This document shows positions 217 through 33,393 of a DNA stretch of 33,393 bases, in pieces. The translations under genes and the position numbers were made by a program. The notes below the pieces were generated by a model, which was not told the DNA's origin, did not search any database, and saw only the letters and a list, made by a program, of their open reading frames with translations. Source of the stretch: Myxococcota bacterium (lineage in GTDB: Bacteria; Myxococcota_A; Polyangia; HGW-17); contig JAHJMN010000123.1 in the NCBI GenBank assembly GCA_018821305.1, positions 1 through 33,393 on the forward strand, in the 5' to 3' direction. The first letter of the stretch is position 1. Every line of letters begins with the position of its first letter.

Positions 217-423
217 CTAGACCGCTTCATGAGTAAAAGAATCGAGAGTAGAACAGTGAATATATTCTTCCAGCCTTTGTAATTTTACATTGATATTGGA
301 TGTTTATGACCTGAGCCTGTCCCTGTTTTCCTGACTTCCTGAGTCCCTGTTAAAATATTTCAGGTAACCAGGAAATCAGTAGCAGGAACAGGCAAACAGG
401 GGCAGGGAGTTTACTTTGAAGGT
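217..423 (+). repeat. MITE-like palindromic element, copy lacking its right terminus
   Basis: It starts CTAGACCGCTTCATGAG, the left terminal sequence of family A. It continues through the CCTG-rich arm (about 310-355) and the complementary CAGG-rich arm (about 360-410). After GTTTACTTTGAAGG the right terminal inverted repeat found in other copies is missing, so the copy is truncated or rearranged. Between 424 and 546 nothing coding is evident. Confidence 0.6.
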
Positions 424-1776: not shown

Positions 1777-3912
1777 TTATTCTTTGGATTTGGAGGCGGC
1801 TTCGTTTTCAGCTTTGCGCTGAAGTTCCCATTTTGCTCCGAGGCGAGCGAGGAAATAGGCAGCAAAACCAAGGGCGATAAACATTATGAGACCGGTGTAC
1901 TGGCCCGTTTTACCATCGAACCATTTGTGTGCTTCGGGAATCCATTTTCCGCCAACATTGGTAAATTTTTCACCCACAGATATAAATCTCACGGGTTTAC
2001 CAAGTTGCGAGAGTTGAAGCACCGCTGCGACAATTCCGATGAGAGCAGCACCTGCCATGAGACCAGAAGCAATGAGGGTTCCCTGAGAACCGATAGCGTT
2101 TTTCTCATCTGGTGTTTTTCCAGCTTTACCGATGAGGAAGGCTGTGAAGCCGCCGGCGAGAACGCCGAGGTTGATGGAAATGGGCAGGTACATCCCAAGT
2201 GCGAAGGCCAGAGCCGGGACTTTTGCCATTTCGAGAATGATTGCAATGATGGCCCCGAGGCCATAAAGAAGGTAGGGCATATCGGCGTTACTCATCATGG
2301 AACTGATGATGGTGGCCATGAGTTTGCCCTGAGGCGCTGCAAGAGGACTGGGGGTTTCCGGTGTTTTTACGAAACCATAGGAAGTGGCGAGAAGCCACAT
2401 GGCGACGCCGACGGAAAGGGATGCTACTAAAATTCCGAGGAATTTAAACGTCTGCTGGGTTTTAGGAGTTACGCCGACCCAGTAGCCGATTTTGAGATCT
2501 GTGATAAAGCCACCAGCAGTGGAAAGGGCCGTGCAGACTGCGCAACCGATTATGAGAGCTGTGTACTGGCCGCTGGTGCCTTTCATTCCTGCAGCAATCA
2601 AGATAAGGGAAGAAATGATTAAAGTCATGAGAGTCATGCCGGACACGGGGTTCGTTCCGACGATGGCGATGGCCCGGGCGGCAACAGCAGTAAACAGGAA
2701 TGAAAATACAAAGGTAACGCCCATTGCTACAAGGGCTCCCGTGACGGATTTTGTGAGGAAAAAGTAAAACACGCCAAGGATTATAACTATTGCAAGTTGT
2801 CCAAGTAAAACGAATTTGGGATCAATATCGGTGTCTGTTCGTTCCGTTGCAACCTGACCAGCTTTTCCGGCCTGAAAGGCTTTGATTCCCAGGGAAAAAG
2901 AACCGAAAATAATGCGGCTCATCTTAATGATTCCAAGGAACCCGGCCATGGCCAGAGCGCCAATACCGATGGGCTGAACGTAGGCTTTGAAGATTGTTCC
3001 GACACTCATGTCCCGGATGAGCATGTTTTTAATGGGTTCCCCATCGGGACCAAGCATGGGAGCGTGGGGAATTACCACATCAAGGTGCTGCCCGAAGTAG
3101 TAAACGAGGGGAATTAAAACGAGGAAGGAAAGAAGAGAACCTGCAGCAATTACAGCAGCATAGCGAAGACCGACGATGTAGCCGATACCCATGAAAGCCG
3201 CAAGACCATGAATGCCGAAGGTTATCTTGTGTTTGGCCATGGCAATGCCCTTTTGGCCAAGGATTACTGTTGAATGAAGTCCGGAGTTCCATAGTTTCGC
3301 CGTTTCCGCTAAGAAATCGAACATGGCTCCAATGCCTGTGGCGAGGAGAAGGATAATACCTGACCGATCACGGCCTTTTGCTTCTCCGGAGGCTATGATC
3401 TCCGCCGTAGCTGTAGCTTCCGGGAAGGGAAGTTGTCCATGCATCTCACTTACAAAGTAGCGGCGCAGAGGGATGAGGAGCAGGATTCCCAGGAACCCGC
3501 CAAGGGAAGAGGAAACAATAATATGAAGCATATTTGGATTAAGTTTATTGATGTACAGGGCTGGAAGAGTAAAAACTACCCCTGCTACAACGACTCCGCT
3601 GCCAGCTCCAATGGACTGAATCATGACGTTTTCTGAAATTGTGTTCTGAGGTCTGTGGATCTTTCCCAGGAAAACCGCAAGAATTGCAATGGGAATAGCT
3701 GCTTCGATGACGTTACCCGTGAGTAGGCCGAGGTAGGCGGCAGCAAATGTAAAAATGATGTTGAATAATATCCCGTAGACGAAAACCCTTGGGGAAATCT
3801 CGGTGATTTTCTTATCTGCAGGAATGTAGGGTATGAATTTTTCCCCTTCATTGAGCGGCCGGTAAGCGCTTTCAGGAAGTACTTTTACATCGGTGTTTGA
3901 ATTGTGCTCCAT
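1777..3912 (-). CDS. OPT family oligopeptide transporter
   Basis: A 711-residue, highly hydrophobic inner-membrane protein of the oligopeptide transporter (OPT) superfamily, bacterial branch, which imports peptides or metal-chelate-like substrates by proton coupling. Visible family features are the first membrane segment ending AYLGLLTGNVIEAAIP, the segment ENVMIQSIGAGSGVV, and the conserved loop LPFPEATATAEI followed by a small-residue-rich helix. More than a dozen hydrophobic stretches span the length, and the C-terminus is a charged tail (KAENEAASKSKE). The ATG has GGAG 7-8 bases upstream and a promoter-like sequence 34 bases further up. It appears to be transcribed alone. The substrate cannot be read from sequence; the family call is secure. 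Confidence 0.92.
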   Translation of the reverse strand: MEHNSNTDVKVLPESAYRPLNEGEKFIPYIPADKKITEISPRVFVYGILFNIIFTFAAAYLGLLTGNVIEAAIPIAILAVFLGKIHRPQNTISENVMIQSIGAGSGVVVAGVVFTLPALYINKLNPNMLHIIVSSSLGGFLGILLLIPLRRYFVSEMHGQLPFPEATATAEIIASGEAKGRDRSGIILLLATGIGAMFDFLAETAKLWNSGLHSTVILGQKGIAMAKHKITFGIHGLAAFMGIGYIVGLRYAAVIAAGSLLSFLVLIPLVYYFGQHLDVVIPHAPMLGPDGEPIKNMLIRDMSVGTIFKAYVQPIGIGALAMAGFLGIIKMSRIIFGSFSLGIKAFQAGKAGQVATERTDTDIDPKFVLLGQLAIVIILGVFYFFLTKSVTGALVAMGVTFVFSFLFTAVAARAIAIVGTNPVSGMTLMTLIISSLILIAAGMKGTSGQYTALIIGCAVCTALSTAGGFITDLKIGYWVGVTPKTQQTFKFLGILVASLSVGVAMWLLATSYGFVKTPETPSPLAAPQGKLMATIISSMMSNADMPYLLYGLGAIIAIILEMAKVPALAFALGMYLPISINLGVLAGGFTAFLIGKAGKTPDEKNAIGSQGTLIASGLMAGAALIGIVAAVLQLSQLGKPVRFISVGEKFTNVGGKWIPEAHKWFDGKTGQYTGLIMFIALGFAAYFLARLGAKWELQRKAENEAASKSKE

Positions 3913-4620: not shown

Positions 4621-4795
4621 TGCTCACTACGTTTCGCTCTATGTGTAAATTTGTCGCTCACTTCGTTACGCTCTATGAGTAAATTTGTCGCTCACTTCGT
4701 TTCGCTGAAATTTACTTGGGGATTGCCGCTCACTACGTTTCGCTGGGGTCTTTTTCAATAATTCAGCGGCCAGGATAACGCTCACTTCGTTTCGC
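4621..4795. repeat. Cluster of GCTCACTTCGTTTCGCT repeats, first block
   Basis: Five copies of a 17-bp word (GCTCACTWCGTTTCGCT with small variations) begin near 4621, 4655, 4689, 4728 and 4779. The first three are 34 bp apart and joined by CTATGWGTAAATTTGTC. Around 4678-4716, AGTAAATTT and AAATTTACT flank one word, giving a stem whose loop is the repeat itself. No ORF or gene signal is present in this gap. Confidence 0.7.
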
Positions 4796-4830
4796 TCATC
4801 TCGGCAAGTGTTTACTTTGAAAGACATTTT

Positions 4831-4982
4831 AAGTTACAAAAGTAACTTTCTCATAAATTGATCAAGGAGAGCGCAGCTCTCCTTAAACCTCTCAGTTGGG
4901 GGGATTCCGACGCGCCCCCCAATCCCCCTTGAACCGGCACAGAGGGGTCAAGCCCCCTCTGGACTCCCCACGCCTGCGGCGT
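4831..4982. repeat. Run of five consecutive perfect hairpins
   Basis: Five inverted repeats follow each other: 4831-4848 (AAGTTAC/GTAACTT), 4864-4884 (AAGGAGAGC/GCTCTCCTT, 3-base loop), 4896-4922 (TTGGGGGG/CCCCCCAA), 4941-4960 (AGAGGGG/CCCCTCT) and 4970-4982 (ACGCC/GGCGT). None is followed by a clear T-run, so they do not look like ordinary terminators. They sit between the two blocks of GCTCAC repeats and resemble a mosaic of intergenic palindromic repeats. Confidence 0.65.
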
Positions 4983-4993
4983 CGAAAACATTC

Positions 4994-5145
4994 CGCTCAC
5001 TTCGTTTCGCTCTATGTGTGAATTTGTCGCTCACTACGTTTCGCTGAAATTTACGTTGAGTTTGTCGCTCACTTCGTTTCGCTCTATGAGTAAATTTGTC
5101 GCTCACTTCGTTTCGCTGAAATTTACGTTGAGTTTGTCGCTCATA
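4994..5145. repeat. Cluster of GCTCACTTCGTTTCGCT repeats, second block
   Basis: Four full copies of the same 17-bp word begin near 4994, 5028, 5066 and 5100, and a fifth broken copy near 5138. The spacing alternates 34 and 38 bp because two linkers alternate (CTATGWGTRAATTTGTC and GAAATTTACGTTGAGTTTGTC). Bases 5146-5228 contain nothing recognisable. Confidence 0.7.
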
Positions 5146-5228
5146 TTCTTTTGATCATCTACTATAGTTGCTTAGTTATCTTGTGCTTTGCTTTATTGTC
5201 AGGGGAAATTTGAAGAGTCAGAATTTTT

Positions 5229-5266
5229 GATAAAATCAATGAAGAAGCGATTCAGGACACGATCTA
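5229..5266 (-). repeat. Stop-codon-anchored repeat (family B), partial copy at the 3' end of a lipoprotein gene
   Basis: On the minus strand it begins with the TAG stop codon of the lipoprotein gene and continues ATCGTGTCCTGAATCGCTTC, matching the 5' part of the copies at 7771-7831 and 33248-33317. A small TTGAT/ATCAA hairpin follows. A convincing closing arm is not seen, so this copy is degenerate or partial. Confidence 0.5.
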
Positions 5267-7330: not shown

Positions 7331-7343
7331 GATATTACCTCAA

Positions 7344-7450
7344 CTAAACCGCTTTCGGAATAAAAGGATCGAAACTAAATTATGGTGAGTGTCAAATTGA
7401 CCTATATTTCAGAAATTCAACACAATCGCATAACTCCGAAAGCGGTCTTG
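7344..7450. repeat. Short (107 bp) deletion derivative of the MITE-like element
   Basis: The ends CTAAACCGCTTTCGGA and TCCGAAAGCGGTCTTG form a 12-bp perfect inverted repeat (ACCGCTTTCGGA and its complement). The following TAAAAGGATCGAAAC and CACAATCG match the inner termini of the full copies. The CCTG/CAGG arms are absent. It lies immediately upstream of the 500-residue lipoprotein gene. Confidence 0.7.
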
Positions 7451-7490: not shown

Positions 7491-7528
7491 AAGTATATTG
7501 ATAGTGAAATTTGTTAAAAGAGGAACTA
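7491..7528. repeat. 38-bp direct repeat, copy 1
   Basis: Begins AAGTATATTGATAGTGAAAT and ends GGAACTA. It is repeated with two mismatches at 7831-7868. The two copies bracket a full MITE-like element and a family B repeat. Confidence 0.85.
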
Positions 7529-7773
7529 TACCGCTTCTTTAATAATAAGATTGTGACTCGTTTTAAAGAAACACTTCAGGAAAGAGACCCTGATTTCCTG
7601 TTGCTGCTACTGATTACCTGTTTATCTGAAATTTTTTAACAGGGATTCAGGTAGTCAGGCAAACAGGTAACAGGGTCAGGTCATAAATATCTAATATCAA
7701 TGTAAAATTACAAAAACTTGAAGCAAATATTCACTTTTTAGTTTTCGATCCTTTTACTAATGAAGCGGTCTAG
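7526..7773 (-). repeat. MITE-like palindromic element, full-length copy in inverse orientation (248 bp)
   Basis: Begins CTATACCGCTTC and ends GAAGCGGTCTAG, the reverse of the 1474-1720 copy. The inner termini AAGATTGTGACTC and CGATCCTTTTACTAATG and the CCTG/CAGG arms (about 7588-7682) are all present. It contains no ORF. Its terminal TAG is shared with the start of the family B repeat at 7771. Confidence 0.8.
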
Positions 7774-7831
7774 TGGCCTGTTAGGATTTTTAATAAAATC
7801 CTTCGCGAAGCGAATTACAGGACACGAACTA
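7771..7831 (-). repeat. Stop-codon-anchored structured repeat (family B), complete copy downstream of mscS
   Basis: On the minus strand it reads TAGTTCGTGTCCTGTAA, then a TTCGC/GCGAA hairpin, then a GGATTTT/AAAATCC hairpin with loop ATTA, then TAACAGGCCAC closing against GTGTCCTGT. This gives an outer stem with two inner hairpins. It lies 38 bp past the mscS stop codon, separated from it by direct-repeat copy 2. Confidence 0.75.
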
Positions 7832-7868
7832 AGTATATTGATAGTGAAATTTGTTAAGAGAAGAACTA
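7831..7868. repeat. 38-bp direct repeat, copy 2, overlapping the mscS stop codon
   Basis: Second copy of the repeat at 7491-7528. Its last three bases are the TAG stop codon of the mscS-like gene when read on the minus strand. Confidence 0.85.
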
Positions 7869-10674: not shown

Positions 10675-10823
10675 ATATTAATGAAATTCCAGTGATAGTA
10701 GTGTAGTACTGAAAAACTCCAGTAGCCTTTCAAGTAAAAAGAAAAAGTAAAAGAGGAGAATTAGTAATATTGCGGGAAATAATTACGTCAAGCTGATACT
10801 TGCGGAAATCAGATTAAAAGTAG

Positions 10824-10871
10824 AGAAATTTTAAAACTTCTTGAAAAGATCGTATGCCAGGACAGTAACTA
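10824..10871 (-). repeat. Stop-codon-anchored repeat (family B) at the 3' end of the chemotaxis operon
   Basis: On the minus strand the cheX stop codon TAG is followed directly by TTACTGTCCTG, then CATACGATCTTTTCAAG and a GAAGTTTTAAAATTTC hairpin. ATACGATCTTTTCAAG is also found, in the same orientation, at the right edge of the window. A closing arm complementary to the TGTCCTG word is not evident. The rest of the 10675-10868 gap has no gene. Confidence 0.6.
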
Positions 10872-15095: not shown

Positions 15096-15122
15096 AAACT
15101 CAAAATATGAGATCGTTAAATC

Positions 15123-15183
15123 GTTCGTGTCCTGTAATTCGCTTCGCGAAGAAATTTATTAAAATTTCTAACAGGCCACTACT
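15123..15183 (+). repeat. Structured repeat (family B), complete copy inside the che operon
   Basis: On the plus strand: GTTCGTGTCCTGTAA, a TTCGC/GCGAA hairpin, a GAAATTT/AAATTTC hairpin with loop ATTA, then TAACAGGCCACTACTAG. It has the same architecture as 7771-7831. Two base pairs of the second hairpin stem are changed on both sides, keeping the pairing. It points away from the neighbouring family B copy and follows no plus-strand gene. Confidence 0.75.
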
Positions 15184-15203
15184 AGTAAATTCAACACCTT
15201 GCG

Positions 15204-15268
15204 GTTACTGTCCTGAGAAAAAAATCGGCGAAAAATTTGATTTCCGGTATTACAGGACAGTAACTAAA
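15204..15268 (-). repeat. Structured repeat (family B) just past the cheA stop codon
   Basis: On the minus strand the cheA TGA is followed by TT and then TAGTTACTGTCCTG. The arm GTTACTGTCCTG is matched perfectly over 12 bp by CAGGACAGTAAC at the other end (plus-strand arms 15204-15215 and 15253-15264, 37-base loop). The loop is AT-rich with no clear second-level hairpin. It could act as a 3' barrier or attenuator between cheA and cheW. Confidence 0.75.
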
Positions 15269-18200
15269 TCAGGATACTTTTCTTTGAAGCAGGCGGTATA
15301 CTGATTTGAGCAGTTTCTCCCGATCCAGTTTCAGTTCGTAAGCATCGAATCCAGCTTCAATGCCCTTTTGAACACTTTTATCGTCATCCAGACTTGTGAC
15401 TGCCATTACTGGAAGATTATTATATTTTCCCGATCTTCGAACTCTATCGAGAAGCCCAATTCCATCCAAGTGGGGCATTACAATGTCGGTGACAATAATA
15501 TCAAAAGGCCCATTATCTTCCAGAATGTCAATTGCTTCCAATCCGTTTGTTGCCGTAATTACCTCAAAACCTTCGTTTACAAGATAATCATTTTCAATCA
15601 TTCGGAAAAATGGAGTATCTTCCACCAGTAAAATTCTATATTCCGCAGGATCGATAGTTTCTCTGTATTCGCGAGTTGTAGCAAAACTATCGGGATCAAA
15701 CAATTCAAAAAGTCTGTAAATATTAAGGAGGAGTACAATTTCATTGTCAATCAATGAACTACCGACGATTCCATCCATCTGAATTGTTTTGCGATCCAGT
15801 TGAACACGAACTTCGCTTATATCCAGAATCGTTCTTGCAACAATACACACAGGTTTTCTGACAAGTTTGGGATGAATAACATAGAACTGACCATTAGCGG
15901 AATCTCCTGCCCCAACATCAAGCAGATTTTCGAGCCTCAGGACAGGAACGAACTTGTTGCCCGTTGTGGTAATGTATTCCTTGTTTCCAACAATTTTTAA
16001 ATTTGTCTGGTCAACTTTTTCGATTCTCTTAATCAGGTTAAGAGGAATTGCAAATTTTTCACGAGATCCATTGTCGAAAAAGAAGAGGCTCTGAACTTCG
16101 CCTGTTTCGATACTCTCTTCTTCTTTATGTGCATCAAGTTTCTCGAGTTCATGGAATTTGATGCGTGATTGCTGAATAATTCCTATTGCATCGAGGATTA
16201 TTGCAATTGTTCCATCTCCAAGAATTGTTGCTCCGGAAAATGCCGGGGATGTTTTAACAAGGGAGGAGAGTGGCTTAATAACAATTTCTTCATTGTCAAG
16301 AATACGATCGACTATCAGACCATACTTAAACCTGCCGGCACGGAGAACTAAAACCCTATGATATCTGTAAGTCTGCCTTCGTTCACTATCACTGCTTTCC
16401 CGTAAATCACCAATATTGCTGCGGCGATCAATCATTTCCTTGCCGGTTTCAGGATGGACGAAGGTTTTCCTGATTTTAAGCACGTCTGCAAGATTTATTA
16501 GTGGAAGAAGTGAATCCCTGTGTCTGAGGACCATGTTCTGATTGATTTTTTCAATTTTAACATCTGGATCTCCCTCACGGATGCGGAGTGCTTCCTCAAG
16601 GGCAACCTGATGAATTGCATATGTATGATTTTCCACTTCAAAAATCAGGGATGGTATAATCGCCAGAGTCAATGGCAGCTTGAGATTCATAAGCGTGCCT
16701 TTGCCAAAAGTTGTGTTTATTTCAGCATTTCCCCCCAACTTTTCAATATTGGTTTTTACAACATCCATACCGACGCCACGACCAGAGACATCACTGACTT
16801 GCTCTGCTGTTGAGAAACCCGGAGCAAAAAGCAGATTAACGATTTCCCTATCGGACCCATTTTCTGCTTCTTCTTTAGTAATAAGTCCTCTCTCTATTGC
16901 TTTTTTAGCAACTCGATGTCTATCAATCCCCCGTCCATCATCTTCAACGTCGATGTTTACCATTCCACCTTCATAATAAGCGGATAAGATTATTGTTCCT
17001 TTACGGACTTTGCCCGCTGTTTCCCTGTAGTCCGGGTCTTCTATGCCATGATCCATAGAGTTGCGGATTATATGAGTAAGAATATCAGAGAGATTTTCAA
17101 TAATTGTTTTGTCGAGTTCGACTTCTTTGCCCTTAATAATGAGGTTTACTTCTTTATTAAGTTTGAGTTCGAGTTCTCTGATAACCCGCGGAAACTTTTT
17201 GAAAAGGTTCCCGATAGGCTGAAGTCTTGTCTTCATAATTTGGCTCTGGATGCTGGAGGTTACCCCGTCTATCTGGTGCAGTACGGTGGATAGACCATCA
17301 ACTTCTTCTTCGTTGTTTTTCATTATTCGAAGAAGCCGGTTTCGAGCTAAAACCAGTTCGCCGGCGGTTTGCATGAGGGAATCAAGCAGGGAAGTCTTAA
17401 CACGTACGGTTTCCTCACTTACACCCCGATTTCCATCCGTGGATAAAACCTCGGTTTTCCTTCCATCCTTCATAGCTTCAGATATAACCTGAGTGAGACC
17501 ATCATTTGTCGGGGATTCGGGCTTTTTAGTTTTGACAACGGGTTTTTCCTGCTTCAGGGCTGGCTTCTCTTTTTCTACAACTGGTACTGTGGTTTTAGCC
17601 GGTTTTCCCGTATCCATCGGTTCAATATATTCTTCAGGAATTTCAAGACCTTCAGAGATAAGGTTATTCTTCAATACTGTAGAAATATAGCCTGTTATCT
17701 CAATGGAAACTCCTTTAAGTTTTTCTTCGGATTCTACATTCGGGGATGGAATATGGAGCTCATATACTTTTCCAAGTTTTTCCCATTCTTCAATTGTTTT
17801 CAAAATTTTAGAAGAATTTCCAAAGAAACTCCAGGGAATGCTGAATCGATAGAGTGAATGACCGAAGCGATTCAATTCGTCCAGATTGATAGATTTGGGT
17901 ATTTGTAGTTTTACAGGGGCCCTGATTACCATTATGTCTGGCACAGGTTCAACAACCTTTGGTGGTAACGGTTCATCTAATTCTTCATCTGAACCTTCAT
18001 AATCCGAATCTCCGTCAGAACTAATACCGAGTCTTTGAAGAAAATCCCCAAAATTTTCATCGCTGGAGTAGGCATTTTCCAGAATTGTCCCCAGCATTTT
18101 CAATTGGTCATCTATTACAAAATCCTCACTTGTTTCTATATTTTCAAGCAAATTAACAAGTTTGTCATTACATTTGACCAGAACGTCTATTGTCAGCGGA

Positions 18201-18451
18201 TCAGTTTGCCTCTCCCCATCTCGTATTTTCATGAGGAGCGTTTCCATCTGGTGGCTGAGTTTGTTTATTTTGGTAAGACCGAAAAATCCGGCAGCACCTT
18301 TCACACTGTGGACGGCTCTGAAAATCCGATTCAGGAGGTCCGGACTTGAATCACCATCCGCTAGAAGAGCAAGATCATTTTCGACATTTGATAGATGATC
18401 TGTACTTTCGACAACAAATTCCTGAAGTAGTTCGAGATCGTTATTATCCAT
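15269..18451 (-). CDS. cheA: CheA hybrid histidine kinase with two CheW-like domains and a C-terminal receiver
   Basis: The central kinase of the chemosensory pathway, 1060 residues. Domains in order: HPt with phospho-accepting His48 (AVHSVKGAAGF); a P2-like region about 180-275; a Lys/Pro/Glu-rich linker 282-315; dimerisation about 348-415; an ATPase domain with N box RNSMDHG (463-469), G1 DDGRGID (504-510), F box LFAPGFST (541-548) and G2 GRGVGM (557-562); a CheW-like domain about 595-765; a second CheW-like region about 785-925; and a receiver about 937-1055 with Glu944-Asp945, phospho-acceptor Asp989 and Lys1041. The layout recalls CheA-CheY fusions such as FrzE of Myxococcus. GGGAG lies before the ATG and overlaps the end of the STAS gene. 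The receiver may act as a phosphate sink or self-regulator (inference). Confidence 0.95.
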   Translation of the reverse strand: MDNNDLELLQEFVVESTDHLSNVENDLALLADGDSSPDLLNRIFRAVHSVKGAAGFFGLTKINKLSHQMETLLMKIRDGERQTDPLTIDVLVKCNDKLVNLLENIETSEDFVIDDQLKMLGTILENAYSSDENFGDFLQRLGISSDGDSDYEGSDEELDEPLPPKVVEPVPDIMVIRAPVKLQIPKSINLDELNRFGHSLYRFSIPWSFFGNSSKILKTIEEWEKLGKVYELHIPSPNVESEEKLKGVSIEITGYISTVLKNNLISEGLEIPEEYIEPMDTGKPAKTTVPVVEKEKPALKQEKPVVKTKKPESPTNDGLTQVISEAMKDGRKTEVLSTDGNRGVSEETVRVKTSLLDSLMQTAGELVLARNRLLRIMKNNEEEVDGLSTVLHQIDGVTSSIQSQIMKTRLQPIGNLFKKFPRVIRELELKLNKEVNLIIKGKEVELDKTIIENLSDILTHIIRNSMDHGIEDPDYRETAGKVRKGTIILSAYYEGGMVNIDVEDDGRGIDRHRVAKKAIERGLITKEEAENGSDREIVNLLFAPGFSTAEQVSDVSGRGVGMDVVKTNIEKLGGNAEINTTFGKGTLMNLKLPLTLAIIPSLIFEVENHTYAIHQVALEEALRIREGDPDVKIEKINQNMVLRHRDSLLPLINLADVLKIRKTFVHPETGKEMIDRRSNIGDLRESSDSERRQTYRYHRVLVLRAGRFKYGLIVDRILDNEEIVIKPLSSLVKTSPAFSGATILGDGTIAIILDAIGIIQQSRIKFHELEKLDAHKEEESIETGEVQSLFFFDNGSREKFAIPLNLIKRIEKVDQTNLKIVGNKEYITTTGNKFVPVLRLENLLDVGAGDSANGQFYVIHPKLVRKPVCIVARTILDISEVRVQLDRKTIQMDGIVGSSLIDNEIVLLLNIYRLFELFDPDSFATTREYRETIDPAEYRILLVEDTPFFRMIENDYLVNEGFEVITATNGLEAIDILEDNGPFDIIVTDIVMPHLDGIGLLDRVRRSGKYNNLPVMAVTSLDDDKSVQKGIEAGFDAYELKLDREKLLKSVYRLLQRKVS

Positions 18452-30678: not shown

Positions 30679-31049
30679 TTAAACTTTTAATTTTGTTTCT
30701 TGCCGGTGGGGCAGGCACCCTCGGACGATACGGTACATCAAATGCTGTGAAAGCTTTCTGGGATACATCTTTTCCTGCTGCAGTTCTAATTGTTAATCTT
30801 GTTGGTTGTTTTCTTTTTGGTCTGTTATGGGCTATGTTTGAAGGAAAATATCACTTTTCATCTGAGTTTCGTCTATACATACTTACAGGGTTTTTAGGTG
30901 GATATACTACATTTTCTGCTTTTATTTTTGATAATTACATGCTTTCCACAAAATCTTTCTGGTGGATGATTCTGAATATTGGAGTTCAGAATGTCGGTGG
31001 ATTGCTGCTGTTTGCCGCTGCAGTCTACATTGTTAAAACTGTTTTTTGA
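30675..31049 (+). CDS. crcB: Fluoride ion channel CrcB/Fluc
   Basis: A 124-residue, four-helix fluoride exporter that works as a dual-topology dimer. Signatures are AGGAGTLGRY near the N-terminus, NLVGCFLFG (41-49) and the pore motif FLGGYTTFSAF (73-83). An ORF extends upstream to 30609, but the conserved protein starts at the ATG at 30675, which overlaps the kinase stop as ATGA. Coupling to a Ser/Thr kinase gene rather than to a fluoride riboswitch is unusual. No riboswitch-like leader was noticed. Confidence 0.93.
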   Translation: MIKLLILFLAGGAGTLGRYGTSNAVKAFWDTSFPAAVLIVNLVGCFLFGLLWAMFEGKYHFSSEFRLYILTGFLGGYTTFSAFIFDNYMLSTKSFWWMILNIGVQNVGGLLLFAAAVYIVKTVF

Positions 31050-31091
31050 AAAATAGTTTTCACAATTGTCAATGGTGGGACTACTTTGCTT

Positions 31092-31120
31092 TTGAGTTAA
31101 AACTGTTTTTCTATTACACT
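31092..31120 (+). promoter_or_regulatory. Putative promoter of the DUF4139 lipoprotein gene
   Basis: TTGAGT (31092-31097), a 17-base spacer and TACACT (31115-31120), 30 bases before the start codon. Confidence 0.45.
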
Positions 31121-31150
31121 GATTTAAAATCAAGAGAGGAGTTTGATGTA

Positions 31151-33250
31151 ATGAAGATAAGACTGTTAATATTATTGTCCATTTTAACTTTTAGTGCGTG
31201 TAACGGTAAGGATGACTATGAATCCACACCATCCCGCACAGTACAGAGTGAACTTCCAATTAAGAGGGTAGTTCTTTACCAGAACGGAGTTGCTTATATC
31301 GAAAGAAGCGGAAAGTTTACGGGGAAAGTTTTAAGCCTGAGAATTCGCCACGATCAGGTGCAGGATATCTTAAAAACCCTTACAGTTATTGATAAATCCG
31401 GTGGACATGCCGTGGCTATTTCTTTACCTGTTGAGAAAAATCAACTTGCAAAAATGGCGGAACTACCACCGCAGGTGCGGAGAAATGGTGGCCTTCTGGC
31501 TATTGCCATGGCCTTTCGTGGGGCAATGGCAAAGGTTGAAACCAGTGATGATACCTACCGTGGACGGATTGTAGGTGTCGAAAATTTTGGAAATGATAAG
31601 GAAAATAAATACAGGCTGACCCTTCTCAGAAACGGAAAACTGCTTGTTATTTCAATGGATAAAATCAATTCTTTGAAGGTTCTTGATAAAACATTAACAA
31701 TCGGGCTTGAAAAAAGTCTTGATATTTCATTGAACAAGGGAACCTGGAAACCTATTAATCTGGCGATAAATCTTTCCCATGCGGGAAGTCACAACTTAAT
31801 TGTAAGTTATGTTGTTGAAATGCCTATCTGGAAGCCCGCATATCGTCTTGTAGTCGGTGATAACGGTAAAGAAATCCTTCTGCAGGGTTGGTCTGTTGTG
31901 GATAATCTTTCCGGTGATGATTGGCGGAATGTTTATCTGTCTTTAACAGCGGGTACTCCTCTGGCATTCCGGTATGATCTTTACACTCCTCATTCCGTTC
32001 AGCGACCGGACCTTACACCCGCGGTAAATCGGGTTTCGGAAGCACCTCCTGCTCCTGTGGATGCTACTGCCGACGATAGTGAAATGGATGCCGCTCCTGC
32101 TCCCGCCTCGAAAAGTTTATCCATGGATGATAGTAAAAAAGACTACAGTCGTAGGCCCAAAAGGTCCCGCGGCAAATACTATAGCAGGCCAATAATTAAG
32201 AATGAACTGTCTGAAGCTCCCAGGATGGAGATCAGTGATATGAGGAGAAGTTTCAAAACCCTTGTTTCCGGCGCATCAGTGGGTAGTCTTTTCCGTTATG
32301 ATATTAAAAGTCCTGTAACAGTTCCGGATCGTTCTTCTGCTCTTGTTACTCTGATCAATAAAGATGTAGAGGGTGAAGATGTCCTTTATTTTATTTCTGA
32401 ATCCAGTGACCGTGTACCTTATAGAGCGATTCGCTTCAAAAATAAAAGTGGATATGTTCTCGAAAAGGGCCCCATTGCTATTTATCGAAAAGGCCAATTT
32501 GTGGGTGAAGCTTTAGGTGGTGTTATTGAAAAGAACGCCACTGCCTTTGTTCCTTATGCACGTGAAGGAAAGATTCACATCCATGTTGCTCAACAATGGC
32601 TGAATGAAGGGGAACGCCTCCTCAAGATTTCAAATGGAAACGTTGTGATTGAAGAGCGTAATATATATAAATATGTTTATGAAATTGAAAATCGCACAGG
32701 AGAAGAATTTACACTTTATATCAGACGCAATCGAAGAAGCGGCTGGAATCCTGCAAACAGTAAGTCGTTTATTTTTGAAAAAGATATTTATTATGTACCA
32801 GTTAAGTTAAAAACTGGGAAAAATAAAACGGAAATACGAGAGGAAACTCCTGTCCGAAGAACATATGGACTTTATTATTATAAAACTCACACATATCTTA
32901 AACTTTTCATTAAGAGCCCGGATCTTCCAGGTGCTCTTAAAGATAAACTTAAAGAAGTTTTAGATATTTATGAGGAAATAACTCAAGTCAAACTTAAGAT
33001 GGAAGAAATCAGTCGCTCTCGAAGTGTGCTTAATGATCAGCAGTATGAAGATCGTCGGAACCTGGAAGTACTCGGAAAGACTGGAAATAATGATCTACGA
33101 AGGAAGTTGCTGAAAAGAATTGAGAAAATCGCTGATGACCTGAGTAAACTCAATAGAGAATGGGTTGAACTCAATATGAAAAAAGGCGAGAAAGAACGTC
33201 GCATGTATGCTCTCTTTAAAATGATATCCTTCACTGCTCCTTCCAAATAG
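31151..33250 (+). CDS. DUF4139-type lipoprotein
   Basis: A 699-residue predicted lipoprotein (signal peptide with FSAC, Cys17). The N-terminal part, with RVVLYQNGVAYIERSG and then DQVQDILKTLTVID, and the later block beginning MPIWKPAYRLVV are typical of proteins with an N-terminal DUF4140-like and a C-terminal DUF4139 domain, a family of unknown biochemical role. A low-complexity Ala/Pro/Asp then Lys/Arg/Tyr insert lies at about 295-380, and the C-terminal 80-90 residues look like a coiled coil (charged heptads around KLKMEEISRSRS). The ORF extends to 31046, but the ATG at 31151 is preferred because it follows GAGAGGAG and starts a proper signal peptide. The TAG stop begins a family B repeat. 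Confidence 0.82.
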   Translation: MKIRLLILLSILTFSACNGKDDYESTPSRTVQSELPIKRVVLYQNGVAYIERSGKFTGKVLSLRIRHDQVQDILKTLTVIDKSGGHAVAISLPVEKNQLAKMAELPPQVRRNGGLLAIAMAFRGAMAKVETSDDTYRGRIVGVENFGNDKENKYRLTLLRNGKLLVISMDKINSLKVLDKTLTIGLEKSLDISLNKGTWKPINLAINLSHAGSHNLIVSYVVEMPIWKPAYRLVVGDNGKEILLQGWSVVDNLSGDDWRNVYLSLTAGTPLAFRYDLYTPHSVQRPDLTPAVNRVSEAPPAPVDATADDSEMDAAPAPASKSLSMDDSKKDYSRRPKRSRGKYYSRPIIKNELSEAPRMEISDMRRSFKTLVSGASVGSLFRYDIKSPVTVPDRSSALVTLINKDVEGEDVLYFISESSDRVPYRAIRFKNKSGYVLEKGPIAIYRKGQFVGEALGGVIEKNATAFVPYAREGKIHIHVAQQWLNEGERLLKISNGNVVIEERNIYKYVYEIENRTGEEFTLYIRRNRRSGWNPANSKSFIFEKDIYYVPVKLKTGKNKTEIREETPVRRTYGLYYYKTHTYLKLFIKSPDLPGALKDKLKEVLDIYEEITQVKLKMEEISRSRSVLNDQQYEDRRNLEVLGKTGNNDLRRKLLKRIEKIADDLSKLNREWVELNMKKGEKERRMYALFKMISFTAPSK

Positions 33251-33317
33251 TTCGTGTCCTGAAATTCAATTTTTGTCAAAATTGAGCATGTTTACGAAAA
33301 CATGCTATTCAGAACAC
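33248..33317 (+). repeat. Stop-codon-anchored structured repeat (family B) after the DUF4139 gene
   Basis: Begins with the gene's own TAG, then TTCGTGTCCTGAAAT. The outer arm GTGTCCTGAAAT (33254-33265) pairs with ATTCAGAACAC (33307-33317). Between them lie two perfect 8-bp hairpins: TCAATTTT/AAAATTGA (33266-33285) and GCATGTTT/AAACATGC (33286-33305). The inner hairpins share no sequence with other copies, but the three-stem layout is the same. Confidence 0.8.
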
Positions 33318-33346
33318 TACAATAATTTCAAGGTCTTCATTCTTAA

Positions 33347-33393
33347 TGTCCTGTGATAAAAATAGTCGTTACCTTGAAAAGATCGTATTACAG
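33347..33393 (-). repeat. Family B repeat cut by the window edge
   Basis: Plus-strand TGTCCTGT (33347-33354) is answered by ATTACAG at the edge. The intervening CTTGAAAAGATCGTAT matches the copy at the cheX 3' end. The orientation predicts a minus-strand gene ending just beyond the window. Confidence 0.6.

Follow-up and report, generated by a model that had tools for sequence, protein, structure and literature searches.

Correia, ERIC, RUP and BOX are bacterial MITEs (reviewed in PMC10969869), and in the REPINs compensatory changes in the stems are common (PMC3116915). In template switching, paired multi-base changes in a hairpin arise in a single event (PMC8794818). Among insertion sequences, members of the IS1202 family end in TGT...ACA, encode a TnsB-like transposase and make target duplications of 3-5, 16-28 or 0 bp (PMC10132070).

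The DNA analysed here, which we call the window, is a stretch of 33,393 bp from a Myxococcota bacterium. It had been predicted from the sequence to hold copies of a structured repeat whose fold is maintained as RNA or as single-stranded DNA. We found that this repeat does not stand alone as an RNA motif: it is the left-hand half of a transposable element, a MITE of 142-153 bp, which the original prediction had missed. It is very probable that the MITE is a non-autonomous DNA transposon with the predicted copies as its left half, that it is moved in trans by an ISNCY-like DDE transposase, and that pairing is kept in its source copies at the level of the DNA.

The element and its copies

The relevant features of the window are these:

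15117-15122, no strand: left 6-bp target duplication TAAATC, identical to 15265-15270
15123-15264, + strand: the complete MITE of 142 bp, with GTTCGTGTCCTG as its left end and CAGGACAGTAAC as its right end
15123-15181, + strand: half A1 of the MITE, the unit first described, an outer stem around two hairpins, 59 nt
15138-15150, + strand: first inner hairpin, TTCGC-TTC-GCGAA
15151-15168, + strand: second inner hairpin, GAAATTT-ATTA-AAATTTC, subfamily Ib
15182-15203, + strand: spacer of the MITE, CTAGTAAATTCAACACCTTGCG
15204-15264, + strand: half B, a palindrome of 61 bp with the terminal repeat as its right arm
15265-15270, no strand: right 6-bp target duplication TAAATC, overlapping the stop codon (15269-15271) of a cheA-like gene at 15269-18451 on the - strand
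7771-7829, - strand: A1 half alone, subfamily Ia, 59 nt, with GGATTTT-ATTA-AAAATCC at 7784-7801
33250-33393, + strand: A2-type MITE, truncated where the contig ends, expected length 153 bp
5206-5264, - strand: decayed A1-like copy, far boundary approximate
10810-10869, - strand: decayed right-end fragment of the MITE with the end GTTACTGTCCTG, far boundary approximate

The unit had been taken to end at 15183, but the whole element runs from 15123 to 15264 with TAAATC on either side. The copies at 7771 and 15123 match as described, although they do not lie on the same strand: 7771-7829 is on the - strand and 15123-15181 on the + strand, so that the two are mutually inverted. When both are read on one strand, they differ at just two base pairs, both within the second hairpin, and in each pair both partners have changed. 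As claimed, the second pair is A-T at 15123 and G-C at 7771, and the fourth is A-T and T-A, respectively. The third copy, which begins at 33250 rather than at 33248, does share the layout but has different stems (CAATTTT/AAAATTG and GCATGTTT/AAACATGC). The open reading frame 31046-33250 ends in a TAG stop whose TA belongs to the flanking hexamer and whose G is the first base of this element (window 33244-33250), a case in which the end of an insertion supplies a stop codon.

Full elements numbered 191 in the approximately 2.0 Mb that we read of the 5.22-Mb genome; they measure 138-154 bp, most of them 141-142 or 153 bp. Because this portion was chosen partly around known copies, the densities are not to be extrapolated. 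In each full element a spacer joins a left half A, which is either A1 (59 nt) or A2 (70 nt), to a palindromic right half of 61 bp; the 142-bp version combines A1 with B and the 153-bp version A2 with C. At 142-153 bp the element is short and carries no transposase gene, and its ends are 12-bp inverted repeats, GTTCGTGTCCTG on the left and CAGGACAGTAAC or CAGGACATTAAC on the right. A search of the 5.22-Mb genome for the exact left end GTTCGTGTCCTG gave 314 occurrences, against 2 for the reversed control, so the repeat is not due to chance. The same sequence was found at background level (0-5 occurrences) in 58 relatives, and a genome of the same genus had no occurrence of it. A pattern scan of genome contigs that did not include this genome gave scattered single matches, uninformative about distribution.

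The flanks of the element point to duplication of a 6-bp target. An exact 6-bp match between the two flanks was present in 99 of 188 full copies; shuffling the right flanks gave 12.5 on average and never more than 24. Matches of 3, 4 or 5 bases were almost absent among full elements. The preferred target is TANNTA, and tandem copies have one hexamer in common. The element at L191:12819-12960 is inserted in another repeat family, of which a paralogue without the insertion is found at L190 (approximately 3680-3750). No full element lies inside a gene, with genes called by a simple longest-ORF scheme. The MITE is a new family of a known kind, and a single active-looking transposon family explains many of the contig breaks in this genome, along with hundreds of its repeats.

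Other repeats were seen in the same genome. The CACTA end of the half element at 7771-7829 adjoins another repeat family (CTAGACCGCTTC...) instead of the usual spacer and B half; this second family was probably inserted there. A second high-copy family, with ACCGCTTCATGAGTAAAAGGATCGA and its inverse as ends, occupies window positions 217-320, 1231-1576, 7343-7374 and 7525-7774. Its usual flanks are CTAG or TTAG, with some 271 ends in the 2.0 Mb and a 4-bp flank match in 7 of 47 paired copies, and it is probably another MITE-like family. A 38-bp direct repeat (7491-7528 and 7831-7868, 95% identical) brackets the second-family repeat together with the half element at 7771. Positions 533-1138 are taken up by 42-bp tandem repeats (TCGGACTCCCCGGAATTTTTTGGGCCTGAT...) together with a related array, and a cluster of CGCTCACTTCGTTTCGCTCTATGAGTAAATTTGT repeats lies at 4621-5155. 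At L031 2133-2574, next to an IS200-like gene, short repeats separated by unrelated spacers look like a CRISPR array.

An insertion sequence that shares its ends with the MITE

The same genome contains an insertion sequence of about 1.7 kb with an intact ISNCY-like DDE transposase and ends identical to those of the MITE. The transposase, 473 aa and intact on contig C216, carries a DDE_Tnp_1 domain (PF01609, E 6e-13). Its best model by far is NF033593 (ISNCY; E 1.8e-87), matched over nearly the full length (54-469 of 473 aa), but the score of 293.9 bits stays below the equivalog cut-off of 325 bits, and hence we call it only ISNCY-like. It is 28-29% identical to rhizobial and Marinobacter ISNCY transposases, and its nearest ISNCY group is probably ISDol1. 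Only weak homologues of the transposase were found in the relatives.

The insertion sequence is assembled in pieces, with the gene and right end on C216 and the left ends on other, overlapping contigs. On C216 the transposase gene is followed by TATTTCAGGACAGTAAC and then TATTTA, which marks the right end; right ends are present on four contigs in all (C216, C123, C154 and C193). The left ends begin with GTTCGTGTCCTGAAATTAAG after TANNTA hexamers, as in TATTTA followed directly by GTTCGTGTCCTGAAATT, on C170, C182, C33, C175 and others, and most of them run into contig ends that overlap C216. The ends are common to the MITE and to pieces of an autonomous element on C216, C123, C170, C182, C33 and further contigs. 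On C123 a right end of the insertion sequence and a MITE lie side by side with one TATTTA common to both. Likewise, both the left (CG) and the right (AC) end variants occur in the insertion sequence and in the MITE, the likeness between the two being limited to about 17 bp at each end of the insertion sequence. Because the ends and the target duplication are common to both, we infer that the ISNCY-like insertion sequence is the likely mobiliser of the MITE in trans.

It is extremely improbable that the repeat is instead a REPIN-type element moved through single-stranded hairpins by one of the Y1 (IS200-like) transposases of this genome. Three Y1_Tnp genes are present, two of them with such elements nearby, and compensatory changes are also seen in REPINs (PMC3116915). 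The exact 6-bp target duplication and the identical ends on a DDE insertion sequence speak against this origin, and they led us to set aside the IS200-like Y1 genes as movers. Y1 elements (IS200/IS605 family) are not known to produce a target duplication.

Covariation and decay of the palindromic halves

We compared 123 A1 modules and found that 96.5% of the cells were standard pairs, compared with 39-52% for structures slid along the sequence. Three haplotypes make up 99 of the 123 copies. The consensus sequences of the three subfamilies differ at eight positions, which form exactly four base pairs, all of them compensated: T-A/G-C and T-A/A-T in the outer stem, and G-C/A-T and T-A/A-T in the second hairpin. 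The B half adds one further compensated pair (C-G in 64 copies, A-T in 31 and approximately 14 mixed), while in the A2 half the stems are nearly invariant and the variation is in the loops. A separate count of covariation over 54 distinct A1 copies gave a score of 0.146, compared with 0.058 for shuffled data (reached in 0 of 500 shuffles). In the same copies 61 cells had changed on both sides, against 22.8 when shuffled; the number of pairs changed on both sides and the number of pair types were not above the shuffles.

Private changes behave differently. Deviations from the subfamily seen in a single copy were one-sided in 88 cases and both-sided in 3, and the contrast with the subfamily differences, 4:0 in favour of both sides, gives a Fisher p of 1.1e-5 for amplified against decaying states, with the 4:0 count resting on four pair changes. 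Some one-sided states, such as that at position 12, are common to several copies. Since the subfamily differences are compensated, the private changes almost all one-sided and the orientation random, we read the pairing as kept in the source, or amplifying, lineages and lost after insertion. The claim that the fold is maintained stands between amplified lineages, where four of four subfamily pair differences are two-sided and a fifth lies in the other half, but its maintenance as RNA is not supported.

A role in transcripts, as a terminator or as a processing or stability element, would also explain why the fold is kept. The predicted folds are stable on both strands (z of -3.4 and -3.5 for the 142-mer and -4.6 for the 7771 half), copies occupy the gaps between genes, the cheA-like operon being one example, and 50 of 147 copies are within 30 bp of a stop compared with 26 near a start. 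Orientation relative to co-directional neighbours is random (41 same, 51 opposite), and the share of convergent neighbours, like the genomic context as a whole, equals the background. One-sided private mismatches show no preference for G-U (10, against 24 A-C), and a search of the window with Rfam covariance models gave no match. A directional RNA function is not supported, and we consider it improbable that the element works as RNA. Perfect compensatory changes between repeats are in themselves no proof of RNA function, and this family is a clear example.

The fold is probably kept at the level of the DNA, or else by template switching together with conversion from copy to copy. It is quite possible that the compensated stems arose without any selection on the fold, through template switching or quasipalindrome correction during replication combined with gene conversion from copy to copy. 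Such switching is a known one-event origin of paired changes (PMC8794818), and the hairpins here are near-perfect palindromes with short loops. The haplotypes also shift as blocks between spacer types: each hairpin haplotype is found with all three of these, and mosaic copies are present, so recombination or recurrence blurs the independence of the pair changes. Against this origin, all subfamily differences are both-sided although private changes are one-sided by 88 to 3, a ratio which indicates that correction is rare in individual copies, and the inverted loop TAAT in place of ATTA was not seen among the A1 copies.

If selection acts instead, amplification of a MITE by a DDE transposase might need the internal palindromes, as a fold of single-stranded DNA or as paired arms bound by the transposase, and only copies with intact pairing would become sources, which would give both compensated subfamilies and one-sided decay. 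We hold this stricter requirement only tentatively and think it rather unlikely. For the transposon reading as a whole, we propose that the transposase of the 1.7-kb insertion sequence would act in trans on the ends of the MITE, with TANNTA duplicated at the target. Pairing would be preserved in the copies that found new copies, most likely in that the palindromic halves matter to the DNA during amplification, as paired transposase-binding arms or as single-strand hairpins. Conversion between copies may help to preserve it, as may the transfer of sequence from one arm to the other by copying. After insertion, copies would decay, with changes mostly on one side. Because the subfamily differences are compensated whereas private decay is one-sided, the role of folding in MITEs becomes testable.

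Comparison with known mobile elements

Two other origins were considered and rejected. TA flanks and remnants of DDE_3 hinted at an IS630 origin with a TA duplication; the duplication is 6 bp, not the 2-bp TA of IS630 and Correia-type elements, and the DDE_3 remnants were not seen together with the ends of the MITE. The IS1202 family was, like the insertion sequence described here, associated with ISNCY, under which it was once filed, but the 6-bp duplication and GTT ends found here exclude membership (PMC10132070). Integron attC was a further candidate that we set aside.

Like the palindromic REP and REPIN sequences (PMC3116915), the MITE is intergenic, present in high copy number and marked by compensatory stem changes; what sets it apart is a 6-bp duplication with DDE-type ends, where those sequences have a Y1/RAYT partner. 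It resembles Correia, ERIC, RUP and BOX in being short, non-coding and AT-rich, with inverted ends, a target duplication, hundreds of intergenic copies, a foldable transcript and ends common to an insertion sequence. It differs from these in its 6-bp TANNTA duplication, in its ISNCY-like transposase, and in its construction from two palindromic halves (A and B), each of which comes in interchangeable versions (A1/A2 and B/C).
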